From Thermococcus sp. JdF3 (GTDB lineage: Archaea > Methanobacteriota_B > Thermococci > Thermococcales > Thermococcaceae): a stretch of 64,000 bases of DNA. Both the position numbers and the translations under genes were made by a program. Every line of letters starts with the position of its first letter. Within the stretch, counting starts at the first letter, position 1. The stretch lies in NCBI RefSeq assembly GCF_012027495.1, contig NZ_SNUK01000002.1:248001-312000 (forward strand). The letters are read 5' to 3'. Of this stretch, positions 11,955 through 21,995 are shown one piece after another. A model generated the notes under the pieces. The model did no database searches. It had not been told where the DNA came from and worked only from the letters and a program-made list of their open reading frames with translations.

Positions 11955-12107
11955 TGAGCATCCGACGACGCCCGGCGGCCCGGTCCCGGGAGCGTTCGGG
12001 CAGCAATGAGCGGGTGCGACGATGCCGGGCGGACAGGGCTCGCCCTCCGGGCCACCGGAGGACGCCGTCCGGCCGCCGATGAGGGATGGGGATGGGTCGA
12101 GCCCACA
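11955..12107 (+). ncRNA. structured GC-rich RNA, H/ACA-like guide RNA candidate
   Basis: A GC-rich island with no plausible protein in the 327-bp gap between metK and the translin gene. A BRE/TATA-like element (CTTAAAATTT, 11927-11935) places a transcript start near 11955-11958 on the plus strand. An 8-bp stem (11969-11976 with 12024-12031) is followed after one base by ACA (12033-12035). A 7-bp stem GGGCTCG/CGAGCCC (12036-12042 with 12098-12104) is followed directly by ACA (12105-12107). Each closing stem with a 3' ACA is the H/ACA layout, and the same layout recurs at 19233-19361. The inner pockets are less clear here: a 7-bp hairpin CCTCCGG/CCGGAGG at 12044-12061 competes with a guide pocket. 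Guide targets are not assigned. Confidence 0.55.
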
Positions 12108-12144
12108 TTTTTAACCCCTTTGTCGGACTTCTTCCGGTGAGATC

Positions 12145-14820: not shown

Positions 14821-16284
14821 TCAGCCTTCTTTAACTTTTAGCGCCTCCAGGAACTTCTCCGTTATGGCCTCCTCCGCCAGCCTGAGGAGCGAGCCCTTGT
14901 CCTTGGCGAGCTTGAAGATTCCAAGGGGGATTCTCGCCCCTCCCGACTGGGAGTGGCCGCCGCCGCTGCCTATGTCGCCGAAGGCCTCCCTGAGGACCGC
15001 CCCGATGTTCACCCTGACGTCGCGAGTCCTGGCGGAAATCTCTATTCTGTCGTCCACTATGCCAAAGACGAGGACCGTGGTTATGCCCTCCAGGCGGAGG
15101 AGGAAGTCGGCTGACTCCGCTATGGCGTCGCGGTTGGTGATGAATCCCACGTTGCTGACGACAACGTTCTTGTAGATGCGCCTGTTCATTATTGCCTTTG
15201 CAAGTATCTCCGCCGTCTCGGTGCTTATGTCCGGGTGCTCTATCTTGTCAAGGAGCTCGTAGTCCACCTTGCCTGCCAGGAACTCGATGGCCTTGAGGTC
15301 GATGTGGCTCAGCTTGGAGAACTTCTTGGTGTCGATATAAATGCCGTAGAAGAGGGCAGTGGCCATGAGGGGGGACAGGGAGATGTTGAGCATTCTGAGG
15401 TACTCGGCGAGGATCGCGGCGGAGGAGTGAACATCGGGCCGTATGTCGAGGAAAGCGTCCTCCGGGATGAGCTCCTGAAGGTGCTGGAGTATCTGGTGGT
15501 GGTCGATGAGTATCTTTATCTTCTTGTAATCGGACTGATCAAGCGTCGTGAGGTTGCCGTTGGGCTGGCAGTCCACGAGGGCTATGAACGGGTAGCGCTT
15601 CAGCTCGTAGGAACCCCTGGAGACCTTCCTGAGATCAATGCCGAGAAGGTTCACGAAGGCCCTGTTCTCATGGTGGGCTATCTCGCCGCCGTAGACTATC
15701 TGGGTCTTGAAGCCGAGGGTCTGGGCTATGACGCTCAGGGCGGTCGCACTGGCTATTGCGTCCGGGTCGGGGTTGTCGTGCATGACTATCAAGAGGGAAT
15801 CCGCCTGATTCCGGAGCTCCTTGAGCTTCCTGACGAGGAGGTTAGCGTTTTTCCGCTCGCCGATCCTCTCGACCGTCCTGATGAGGGCATCCTTCAAGGC
15901 GTTCCTGGGCGTGACGGCGTAGTCGACCTTAACCTCCGCCTCGTACTCCTCGTTTATCTGGGAAACGAGGTCATCGAGGCCAACATCATCGGGAAGAACC
16001 GTAACGATAGGCACGTCTTTGTTGTTGGTCCTTATCACGTAGACGGTTTTTCTGATTACATCAACGTTCATGGTGGTGATTATGACGAGTTCGGCTTTGT
16101 CGACGCCGGCCTTCAGGAGGGTGGCGGTGTATGAGAAGTCCCCATTGATGACATGGAAACCGCTCTCCTCGAGGGCCTTGGCGCGGATCTCATCCTTCTC
16201 TATCACAGCCACCTCAAACTCTCCCCTGAGTGACTCGGCTATCGCGCGGCCGATTGCCCCGCCTCCCAGTACCAGCACCCGCAT
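14821..16284 (-). CDS. RCK_N-DHH-DHHA1 phosphoesterase (candidate cyclic di-AMP phosphodiesterase)
   Basis: A 487-residue three-domain protein. Residues 1-115 are a Rossmann RCK_N/TrkA-N domain starting MRVLVLGGGAIGRAIAESL. A DHH domain (about 150-320) carries HDNPDPDAIASA, LVDCQP and the name-giving LIDHHQ. A DHHA1 domain (about 350-480) ends with GDIGSGGGHSQSGGARIPLG. DHH-DHHA1 proteins cleave small nucleotides such as cyclic di-AMP or pApA, and the RCK-fused architecture has been proposed as the euryarchaeal cyclic di-AMP phosphodiesterase linked to potassium control. ATG 16284 is preferred over 16305 because GGTGG precedes it. A TATA-like TTTAAATA lies at 16311-16318. Confidence 0.82.
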   Translation of the reverse strand: MRVLVLGGGAIGRAIAESLRGEFEVAVIEKDEIRAKALEESGFHVINGDFSYTATLLKAGVDKAELVIITTMNVDVIRKTVYVIRTNNKDVPIVTVLPDDVGLDDLVSQINEEYEAEVKVDYAVTPRNALKDALIRTVERIGERKNANLLVRKLKELRNQADSLLIVMHDNPDPDAIASATALSVIAQTLGFKTQIVYGGEIAHHENRAFVNLLGIDLRKVSRGSYELKRYPFIALVDCQPNGNLTTLDQSDYKKIKILIDHHQILQHLQELIPEDAFLDIRPDVHSSAAILAEYLRMLNISLSPLMATALFYGIYIDTKKFSKLSHIDLKAIEFLAGKVDYELLDKIEHPDISTETAEILAKAIMNRRIYKNVVVSNVGFITNRDAIAESADFLLRLEGITTVLVFGIVDDRIEISARTRDVRVNIGAVLREAFGDIGSGGGHSQSGGARIPLGIFKLAKDKGSLLRLAEEAITEKFLEALKVKEG

Positions 16285-19162: not shown

Positions 19163-19199
19163 GGCTCAGGTTTTTAAGGTGGTCGGCCATAAAGCCAAT

Positions 19200-19362
19200 C
19201 GCCGACAGTGAGGGGACAGTTCGTCTCCTCATGGGCTCGGTCAACCCGCCTCCGCGAGGTACTCGGGTTCCGTGAGCGGAGCGTGCTCACGCCGAGCCCA
19301 CAGGGCCGGGAGCATCCACCCGCGCGAGCGAATGAACGCGGGCCTCTGTACCCGGCCCACAA
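19200..19362 (+). ncRNA. multi-hairpin H/ACA guide RNA candidate
   Basis: A non-coding GC-rich stretch in the 280-bp gap before the CBS regulator. TATA-like TTTTTAAGG (19171-19179) predicts a start near 19200. A short hairpin (about 19211-19230) is followed by two H/ACA units. Unit 1: stem 19233-19240 with 19292-19299, then ACA 19300-19302; its upper stem 19250-19255/19276-19281 opens into GA on one side and TGA on the other, a kink-turn-like element. Unit 2: stem 19303-19310 with 19351-19358, then ACA 19359-19361; its upper stem CCCGCG/CGCGGG (19319-19324/19337-19342) holds a loop with GA and TGA. Its pocket strands AGCATCCA and CCTCTGTA leave 16 bases between upper stem and ACA, close to the family norm. 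Target RNAs are not assigned. Confidence 0.8.
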
Positions 19363-19442
19363 TTCGACGCACTTCTGAGGAAGGCTTATAACCGGAAGGG
19401 CGGGATTTAGTTTTTGAGAGCCGACATAACCGGTGGTTATTT

Positions 19443-20015
19443 ATGGTGATAATTCCCCGACCGATAGAACCACAGGAGATAAGGCGAATTCGCAAGGAGC
19501 TCGGAATAACCCAGGAGGAACTCGCGGAGAAAGCAGGGGTTACGCAGGCTTACATCGCCAAACTGGAGACAGGGAAGGTGGACCCTCGACTCTCAACCTT
19601 CAACCGAATCCTCCAGGCCCTGCTCGAGTGCAAGAGGGCCCAGCTGACGGCGAGGGACGTGATGTCATCTCCGGTTCTCTCAGTCAAGCCCTACGAGAAG
19701 GTCGAGAAGGTCATCAAGCTGATGAACGAGCACAACATATCCCAGATTCCGGTTATAGCGGGCAACAAGGTCGTCGGCTCCGTTACGGAGAGAACCCTCG
19801 TCAGACAGAGCCTTGAGTACGAGGACATCTATGACCACAAGGTCATGGAGGTAATGGAGGAGCCCTTCCCGATAGTGAACGAGGACGAGGACCTGGAGGT
19901 CGTCAAGTACCTCCTGGAAGAGCACCCCGCTGTTCTCGTCCAGAACAGGGAGGGCAGGATAACCGGCATCATCACAAGGGTGGACATATTCCGGATAGGG
20001 AAGGGGCGCGACTGA
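19443..20015 (+). CDS. HTH-CBS transcriptional regulator
   Basis: A 190-residue protein with an N-terminal Xre-type helix-turn-helix (residues 8-62; ELGITQEELAEKAGVTQAYI) fused to a pair of CBS domains (residues 65-190; MSSPVLSVKPYEKVEKVIKL and MEVMEEPFPIVNEDEDLEVV). CBS pairs bind adenosine nucleotides, so this is probably a nucleotide-sensing DNA-binding regulator, a fusion common in archaea. The start ATG 19443 lies downstream of a TATA-like CTTATAAC (19384-19391). No obvious target gene lies next to it, and the next gene has its own promoter. Confidence 0.85.
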   Translation: MVIIPRPIEPQEIRRIRKELGITQEELAEKAGVTQAYIAKLETGKVDPRLSTFNRILQALLECKRAQLTARDVMSSPVLSVKPYEKVEKVIKLMNEHNISQIPVIAGNKVVGSVTERTLVRQSLEYEDIYDHKVMEVMEEPFPIVNEDEDLEVVKYLLEEHPAVLVQNREGRITGIITRVDIFRIGKGRD

Positions 20016-20132
20016 GTTCCCCGCCCGGCAGTCCTTTGCATTCCCCTCTTCTAACCTCCGTGGCAAAAATATCCAACAAGTTTATATACCCCCGGCCCAA
20101 CCATCAGTGGACAAATAATCCAGGTGGTTGGA

Positions 20133-21995
20133 ATGAAAAAGACCGCGGTTTTGCTCATGGCCCTGCTCATCGGAGCGGTCGTGGCGTCCGGATGCCTGGG
20201 CGGTGGAACGACCGAAACGGGCACCACGACGGTCCCCGAAACATCAAGCTCATCGGGTACTGTACAGACCACCACAAACTCACAGACCCCGACTGAAACC
20301 ACGCAGACGGAGACCCCTCACTACCCAATCACCGTTGTTGACTTTGCCAACAGAACCCTCACAATTGAGAAACCCCCCGAGCGCGTCGTGACGCTGGCCC
20401 CGAGCATCACGGAGGACCTCTACTACCTCGGTCTCTTTGACAGAGTCGTCGGGGTTACGGACTTCGATGATTTTCCGCCGGGAGTTGCCAACGTCACCCG
20501 CGTGGGCGGCTACGGCCAGTACGCCAACCTCGAAGTGATAGCATCGCTCAACCCCGACCTGATACTGGTGGACAGTTACTCCATGACGATCCTCGAAGAC
20601 CTCCAGAAGATAGCCCCAGTTCTCGTGGTTGATCCACACAGCATCGACGACATCCCAAGGGCCCTTGACCTCCTGGGAGCAGTTTTCAACGCGGAGGAGG
20701 GCGCCAGGAAGGCGACGGCAGAGTTCGAAGCAAAGATAAACACGATAAGCTCCACCGTTAAGGATGAACCCCGTGTGAGCGTTTTCTACGTGGTCTGGAA
20801 CAGCCCGCTCATGACCGCCGGCGGCGGAACCTTCATCAGCGACGTCATAGAACTGGCCGGCGGAGAGAACATCTTCAACGATACGACCGGCTGGCCGACC
20901 GTGAGTCCGGAGCAGGTCATAGAGAGGAACCCCGACGTGGTGCTCCTCACCCCGCACTGCGGCATGAGCGTCCAGGACGTTTACAGCGGCCCCCTCGCGA
21001 GCATAAAGGCCGCCCAAGATGGAAAAGTTTACGTCATCGAGAACGAGAACGACCTCATCCACCCGAGCCCCCGCGTTGTCCTTGGGCTCGAGGCGGTTGC
21101 GAGGCTCCTGCACCCGGACGCCTTTAAAGTGGGCTACCCGCTCACGGTCACAGACTTCGCGGGGAGAACCGTCACGATCGACGACGAACCGGAGAGGATA
21201 GTCACCCTCGCTCCCAGCATAACGGAGAGCCTTTTCTACATAGGCGCGGGCGACAAGGTCATCGGGGTTACCGACTACGACGACTTCCCGCCGGCGGTTA
21301 AGAACATCACCCGGATAGGCGGCTACGGAAAGTACGCGAACCTCGAGGCCATAGCCGCACTGGAGCCGGACCTGATCCTGGTGGACGGATTCTCCATGGA
21401 TATAATGGAGAGCCTGGAGAGGATAGCCCCCGTCGTTGTGGTGGACCCCAGGAACATCACCGCGATCTACAACGCCCTTGAGCTCCTTGGGAAGATAACC
21501 AACCGCGAGGAAGGGGCCAGGGCAGCGGTGGCGGACATGCAAGCAACGGTCGGCTACGTCACCTCAACTGTAGCGGGACAGTCAAAGCCAAGGACATTCT
21601 TCCTCCTGAGCTACTACAACGGCTACTGGACGGCCGGAGCAGGAACCTTCGTCAACGACCTCATAACCCTCGCCGGCGGTGAAAACATCTTCAACGACGT
21701 CAACGGTTGGGGGGCGGCGAGCGAGGAGCAGATAATAGCCAGGAATCCGGAGGTCATAATAATCTCGCCCAACGCGGGAATAAAGCCCGATGACCTCTGC
21801 TCCGGTCCACTCGCGGAAGTCGATGCGGTGAAGAACGGAAGGGTCTACGTCCTCAGCGACGAGAACCTGGTCGTGAGGCCCGGGCCGAGGATAGTGCACG
21901 GGCTGGAGGAAATAGCCGGGTACCTGCACCCCGACGTCTTTAACCTTCAGCCCCAGCCCCTGGCCTGCAACGCAACGGTCGAGACCGGGGGCTGA
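20133..21995 (+). CDS. lipoprotein with two fused BtuF/FepB-type solute-binding domains
   Basis: A 620-residue secreted lipoprotein. The signal ends at the lipobox ASGC (Cys21), followed by a Thr/Ser-rich linker (24-62). Two homologous periplasmic-binding domains (PF01497) follow: about 64-332, starting YPITVVDFANRTLTIEKPPE, and about 334-604, starting YPLTVTDFAGRTVTIDDEPE. Both copies keep RVVTLAPSITE-like, GVTDFDDFPP-like and NPDLILVDS-like blocks, so they are an internal tandem duplication. Class III binding proteins carry iron-siderophores, cobalamin or haem to ABC importers; no permease or ATPase gene is adjacent. ATG 20133 has AGGTGGT upstream, and the TATA box (GTTTATATAC, 20080-20089) is about 45 bp before it. 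Confidence 0.85.
   Translation: MKKTAVLLMALLIGAVVASGCLGGGTTETGTTTVPETSSSSGTVQTTTNSQTPTETTQTETPHYPITVVDFANRTLTIEKPPERVVTLAPSITEDLYYLGLFDRVVGVTDFDDFPPGVANVTRVGGYGQYANLEVIASLNPDLILVDSYSMTILEDLQKIAPVLVVDPHSIDDIPRALDLLGAVFNAEEGARKATAEFEAKINTISSTVKDEPRVSVFYVVWNSPLMTAGGGTFISDVIELAGGENIFNDTTGWPTVSPEQVIERNPDVVLLTPHCGMSVQDVYSGPLASIKAAQDGKVYVIENENDLIHPSPRVVLGLEAVARLLHPDAFKVGYPLTVTDFAGRTVTIDDEPERIVTLAPSITESLFYIGAGDKVIGVTDYDDFPPAVKNITRIGGYGKYANLEAIAALEPDLILVDGFSMDIMESLERIAPVVVVDPRNITAIYNALELLGKITNREEGARAAVADMQATVGYVTSTVAGQSKPRTFFLLSYYNGYWTAGAGTFVNDLITLAGGENIFNDVNGWGAASEEQIIARNPEVIIISPNAGIKPDDLCSGPLAEVDAVKNGRVYVLSDENLVVRPGPRIVHGLEEIAGYLHPDVFNLQPQPLACNATVETGG

Follow-up and report, generated by a model that had tools for sequence, protein, structure and literature searches.

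HgcF, a two-unit box H/ACA RNA of Thermococcus sp. JdF3, and a candidate rRNA anchor at its 5' end

The HgcF locus and its surroundings

The 64,000-nucleotide stretch of Thermococcus sp. JdF3 DNA analysed here (the window) yields four Rfam matches when scanned as a whole with cmscan. The best of these, at 19201-19372 on the forward strand, is to the HgcF family (RF00058; 138.8 bits, E 7.5e-32, model positions 1-168 of 168), for which the gathering score is 70 bits. We are highly confident that this stretch is HgcF (Pab35), a box H/ACA sRNA of a Thermococcaceae genome with a TATA promoter of its own (Table 1); upstream of the RNA, the TATA element is the main conserved feature in the alignment, with little else preserved. 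The HgcF/Pab35 family is already described, and a guide RNA of this kind is ordinary among this archaeal group. An earlier, sequence-only reading had proposed a two-unit archaeal H/ACA guide RNA at this place, and had suggested as checks a covariance search, a search for covarying pairs in relatives, and the prediction of rRNA targets from the pocket strands. The covariance search bears out the two-unit guide RNA over its full length and adds the name of the known family, which that reading did not give; the 5' hairpin, which it had noticed, it left unexplained.

Directly downstream on the same strand lies a gene (19443-20015) for a protein that, by eye, resembles a combination of HTH and CBS domains; a TTATAA stands near 19386, and a similar coding start also follows HgcF in another genome (locus L066). 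This arrangement could suggest that the HgcF stretch is a cis-acting leader or attenuator of the 19443 gene, a reading that we consider extremely improbable, given that the stretch matches a known family of trans-acting guide RNAs, that the gene has the TTATAA as an element of its own, and that, according to PMC4652768, the transcript of the Pyrococcus abyssi orthologue stops soon after the RNA. Further along (20124-21995, +), a 623-aa ORF appears, by eye and from its repeated sequence, to encode two tandem domains similar to ABC-transporter binding proteins. ORFs also overlap the RNA itself on both strands, but a coding reading was rejected because lengths vary by single bases and other non-multiples of three and because the stretch covaries as RNA.

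HgcF is matched in 60 of the 61 genomes of the genus and in 91 of the 115 genomes of the class. Counted by hand, these 91 all fall among the 94 members of the same family, with none among 21 genomes from four other families; none of the 14 control genomes has a match. Within the family, 90 of the 91 matches lie above the cut-off, one copy to a genome, and additional weak matches fall below it. Weak second matches about 7 kb away in three genomes (G002, G020 and G048) are probably counterparts of HgcE (RF00060, Pab105), the second known H/ACA RNA of the window, which lies 7.2 kb upstream of HgcF (11998-12123, +; 72.1 bits) and belongs to the same RNA class but is a different guide. The window also holds the box C/D RNA sR45 (RF01274; 54113-54181, +; 58.6 bits) and, at 14937-14955, 19 nt perfectly complementary to the genome's own 23S rRNA at 144-162, a stretch in which self-folding is possible and the match may be due to chance.

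The match in one of the genomes (G085) has exactly the coordinates, 318,231-398, that are printed for P. abyssi in PMC4652768. According to the same source, this orthologue is transcribed from 318,227 to 410; the transcript starts 4 nt upstream of the conserved RNA and includes the 5' tail. The JdF3 RNA has in common with P. abyssi HgcF/Pab35 the two H/ACA units, the 5' hairpin, the ACA boxes, the predicted targets and the whole Rfam model, and differs from Pyrococcus HgcF by sequence only, the top of its 5' hairpin being longer.

Table 1. Features of HgcF and its promoter in the JdF3 window
Feature	Position	Strand	Description and basis
TATA element	19171-19177	+	TTTTTAA; first base about 30 nt before the first conserved base of the RNA
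5' tail	19201-19207	+	GCCGACA; conserved, predicted unpaired
Proposed rRNA anchor	19201-19213	+	5'-terminal 13 nt, complementary to 23S CCUCGCUGUCGGC (P. abyssi 2590-2602)
5' hairpin	19208-19232	+	Variable top; 5' arm common to the anti-23S stretch
Unit A	19233-19302	+	Lower stem, guide strands, upper stem, K-turn, ACA; Rfam match, covariation and target score
Unit A lower stem	19233-19240/19292-19299	+	GGGCTCGG/CCGAGCCC, 8 bp; ACA 19300-19302 immediately after
Unit A guide strands	19243-19246 and 19285-19291	+	Predicted target U2672 (P. abyssi numbering)
Unit A upper stem	19250-19255/19276-19281	+	Covariation, 5 of 6 pairs changed on both sides
Unit A K-turn	19256-19257/19273-19275	+	GA...TGA; sequence
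Unit B	19303-19361	+	Lower stem, guide strands, upper stem, K-turn, ACA; Rfam match, covariation and target score
Unit B lower stem	19303-19310/19351-19358	+	GGGCCGGG/CCCGGCCC, 8 bp; ACA 19359-19361 immediately after
Unit B guide strands	19311-19317 and 19344-19349	+	Predicted targets U2697 and U2549
Unit B upper stem	19319-19324/19337-19342	+	Covariation alignment
Unit B K-turn	19326-19327/19333-19335	+	GA...TGA; sequence
3' tail	19362-19372	+	End of the Rfam match; weakly conserved

Structure of the two H/ACA units

The elements from which the sequence-only reading had built its case are all present: two 8-bp stems that run directly into an ACA, GA/TGA kink-turn-like elements in both units, the 5' hairpin, and the upstream TATA element. 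The pocket strands that it gave (19311-19318 and 19343-19350) were right within a base or two. The K-turn GA/TGA elements of both units, recognised by sequence alone, are mostly conserved in an alignment of 88 sequences. The computed energy of the fold, -87.6 kcal/mol, lies well below that of shuffled sequences (-67.9 +/- 4.7; z -4.22; 0 of 200 as stable). Because the minimum-energy fold does not contain the unit A pocket, the top of that unit forming two hairpins instead, the argument rests on comparison and not on energy; the pocket form of unit A is the one that covariation backs.

The alignment comprises 88 of the 91 HgcF matches and leaves out one that is cut by a contig end (L104), one that has no 5' domain (L066, in genome G033), and a partial one below the cut-off (G044). 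Across both units, 97.1% of the cells are paired and 14 of the 28 pairs have changed on both sides, so that covarying pairs are indeed found in relatives. Two-sided changes fill 79 cells, compared with 12.8 in shuffles, and on all five measures used each of 500 shuffles falls short, with the caveat that related sequences can beat such shuffles without structure and that the counts of pairs and of types are more robust. When the partners are slid by 1 to 3 columns, pairing falls to 28-51%. In L066, the lower stem is strongly changed and still paired (CGCTTGG/CCAAGCG).

Predicted targets in 23S rRNA

Both pockets were scored against the complete 23S rRNA of the JdF3 genome (L032), and targets emerge for each; to predict them from the pocket strands had been a proposal of the sequence-only reading. 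For unit A, the top uridine in the whole 23S is U2672 (L032 4175, CGUGAGC-U-G-GGUU; score 29, next 19), and for unit B, it is U2697 (L032 4200, ACAGG-U-C-GGAUGCU; score 29, next 24); a weaker site of unit B, U2549 (L032 4052, ACAGAG-U-C-G), ranks fourth with a score of 18 under this simple scheme. The pockets pair with U2672 by 7+4 bp, with U2697 by 5+7 bp and with U2549 by 6+1 bp, and the guide bases that adjoin the target uridine lie 14-15 nt from the ACA, as counted by hand. If 23S is taken to start at P. abyssi 206831, these uridines receive exactly the numbers 2549, 2672 and 2697. Each of the three sites is the same in 30 of the 30 23S loci examined, which are 30 of the 44 places listed.

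By our count on the E. coli sequence, U2672, U2697 and U2549 correspond to Psi2580, Psi2605 and Psi2457, which in that bacterium are made by stand-alone enzymes. U2697 has reportedly also been assigned to Pab35 by Muller et al. 2008. For P. abyssi, PMC4652768 gives the pairs Pa35.1-L2672 and Pa35.2-L2549 and notes that in the second of these the 3' duplex has just one base pair; the computed spacing reproduces both pairs, the single-bp 3' duplex included. PMC4652768 itself nowhere contains the string "2697".

In each unit, the kink-turn would be bound by L7Ae, and the stem with its ACA by Cbf5-Nop10-Gar1; the pocket, once opened, would pair to the left and right of an unpaired domain V uridine of 23S, and Cbf5 would isomerise that uridine. 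Unit A would act on the equivalent of P. abyssi U2672 and unit B on U2697 and U2549, three sites that lie around the peptidyl transferase centre; this guide activity in JdF3 we infer from the sequence.

The 5' domain and its complementarity to 23S rRNA

Positions 2-6 of the 5' tail are invariant in all 88 aligned sequences, with a single departure at position 1 and two at position 7, and positions 1-7 are unpaired in the minimum-energy fold of 83 of the 88. The hairpin that follows forms a helix of 7-11 bp in 88 of 88, with C-G/U-A and G-C/U-A exchanges. The first 13 nt, that is, this conserved single-stranded tail together with the 5' arm of the hairpin, are complementary to 23S, and no other stretch of the RNA matches 23S as well. 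Across the 2.14-Mb genome, the complementary pattern is matched exactly in 23S and otherwise only by the gene for HgcF itself, in a search that covers 23S completely and 16S only in part because the latter is cut at a contig end. An 18-nt 5' motif (at most one mismatch) is present in 88 of the 115 class genomes and absent from all 21 that belong to other families; it occurs almost only at HgcF, with two further one-mismatch sites (G007 and G019).

The 2590-2602 strand of 23S lies opposite the unit A target; its last base directly adjoins U2603, and it starts 5 nt from U2585. By sequence, GGCUC at 2600-2604 pairs with GAGCU at 2668-2672, which places G2600 opposite U2672, in helix H90. This position of the match adds weight to it but was noticed afterwards. 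The peptidyl transferase strand at L032:4093-4105, as in the 23S of the class, reads CUCGCUGUCGG, with a C at E. coli position 2503, an A in most 23S; G8 of the HgcF tail is complementary to this C.

All 13 pairs are kept in 87 of the 88 genomes. On a tree built from the rest of the RNA, some 27 changes fall in the 13 positions and 26 of them keep pairing; 24, however, affect positions 9 and 11, at which C/U and A/G variation would be allowed by the hairpin in any case, so that they are not independent evidence. The 23S strand is identical wherever it is found in the family, with exact matches in 42 of the 61 genomes of the genus and, counted by hand, in 24 of the 33 other family members, most of the remaining family genomes being drafts that gave no hit; because the strand is invariant, no compensatory change is visible. 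Computed at 85 C for this genome, the duplex with 23S has -8.6 kcal/mol, against -3.3 for the hairpin region to be opened. The duplex being the stronger, an exchange of strands is energetically allowed, in a rough estimate that leaves out the cost of opening the rRNA.

How surprising the 13-nt match is depends on how it is scored. Under a permissive score that allows runs of G-U pairs, as good a match arises for the first 40 nt in 90 of 2000 shuffles, in 412 of 2000 shuffles of the whole RNA, and in 105 of 3198 40-mers of the window. Under a strict score, with at most one G-U pair, a 13-nt match to 23S is reached by 75 of 10000 shuffles of the first 32 nt and by 389 of 5000 shuffles of the whole RNA, and by 13 of 20000 when the 13-mer is fixed at the 5' end; the base rate is 78 of 127976 window 13-mers. 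In HgcE, used as a control, no match of the 5' tail to 23S was found; that RNA, unlike HgcF, has no 13-nt complementarity to 23S, its longest strict match being 10 nt.

Most of these frequencies, together with the variation at positions 9 and 11, which the hairpin by itself explains, would fit the view that the 5' tail and hairpin do no more than protect the end of the sRNA or serve its processing and that the complementarity is a coincidence, and we give this view an even chance. It also accords with genome G033, where both H/ACA units (L066, about 200-345) are kept with no recognisable 5' tail or hairpin, an apparent natural loss of the 5' domain. Coincidence, however, leaves unexplained why the unpaired GCCGACA is among the most conserved parts of the RNA and why the match falls on the strand that faces the RNA's own target, and it has to accommodate the rarity of the strict match when fixed at the 5' end.

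A possible anchor on domain V

An alternative that we find plausible, if somewhat short of even odds, is that the 5' end of HgcF is a built-in rRNA anchor, an accessory guide within an archaeal H/ACA RNA. The single-stranded tail GCCGACAG would serve as a toehold, after which the 5' arm of the hairpin would be displaced to give a 13-bp duplex with 23S 2590-2602. Such a duplex would hold the RNP on domain V and keep the strands of the U2672 helix apart, so that unit A could reach its target. It would also occupy the strand between Psi2585 and Psi2603, and may time or enable the modification of these two positions.

Extra pairing with rRNA is established for some yeast box C/D snoRNAs (PMC5389607). 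Among these, snR13 and U18 have accessory guides, that is, a second rRNA-pairing stretch outside the guide and near the target, as proposed here for the HgcF 5' end; they are yeast methylation guides with a tested function, whereas HgcF is an archaeal H/ACA RNA with a putative anchor recognised by its sequence (PMC5389607 and PMC8522698).

According to PMC6138745, the 2585-2603 strand carries two pseudouridines with no known guide, Psi2585 and Psi2603; formation of the former depends on the H/ACA proteins together with an RNA. One might then see the 5' domain as a non-canonical third unit that guides one of the two, the more so as the match directly adjoins U2603 at one end and starts 5 nt from U2585 at the other, as the same paper leaves the identity of the RNA for Psi2585 open and suggests a new type of guide, and as a motif Pab35.3 is listed, with no details in the text, in PMC4652768. 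We nevertheless regard this as very unlikely. A duplex that runs unbroken for 13 bp does not make a two-sided pocket, and inspection by eye showed no second guide strand that is conserved. PMC6138745 reports that Psi2585 was produced by none of the P. abyssi guide sRNPs it tried, and that Cbf5-Gar1 can form Psi2603 in vitro with no RNA present, as happens in vivo when Nop10 is lacking. With geometry and published tests against it, we do not claim a guide function of the 5' domain for Psi2585 or Psi2603.

Two other pairings of the 5' domain were considered by eye and rejected. A two-sided pocket for U2585, U2588 or U2603 would require a candidate strand that is not conserved: the GCAAG that comes after the hairpin in Pyrococcus, and that would face CUUGC, is GCACG or missing in Thermococcus. 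Pairing of the 5' tail with the UCGG of the unit A lower stem is at odds with stem changes that are not mirrored in the tail.

For the proposed anchor, the published in vitro tests on U2585 carry no weight in either direction, since their substrate, 2583-2599 in Thermococcus kodakarensis numbering (PMC6138745), holds only about half of the complementary stretch. For this genetically tractable species, the same paper has deletions of cbf5, nop10 and gar1. In the literature covered on HgcF, Pab35, accessory base-pairing and orphan pseudouridines, from which subscription journals are mostly absent and which was available in part, no pairing of the 5' tail with rRNA is mentioned, and the 5' hairpin and tail are the part of the RNA left unexplained there. 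Because PMC6138745 leaves the modification of 2585-2603 open in Thermococcales, and the HgcF tail pairs precisely there, the 5' end of this RNA appears to merit a second look. If the anchor is real, HgcF would be an archaeal H/ACA RNA with a separate docking or strand-opening element, similar to those of some yeast box C/D snoRNAs.
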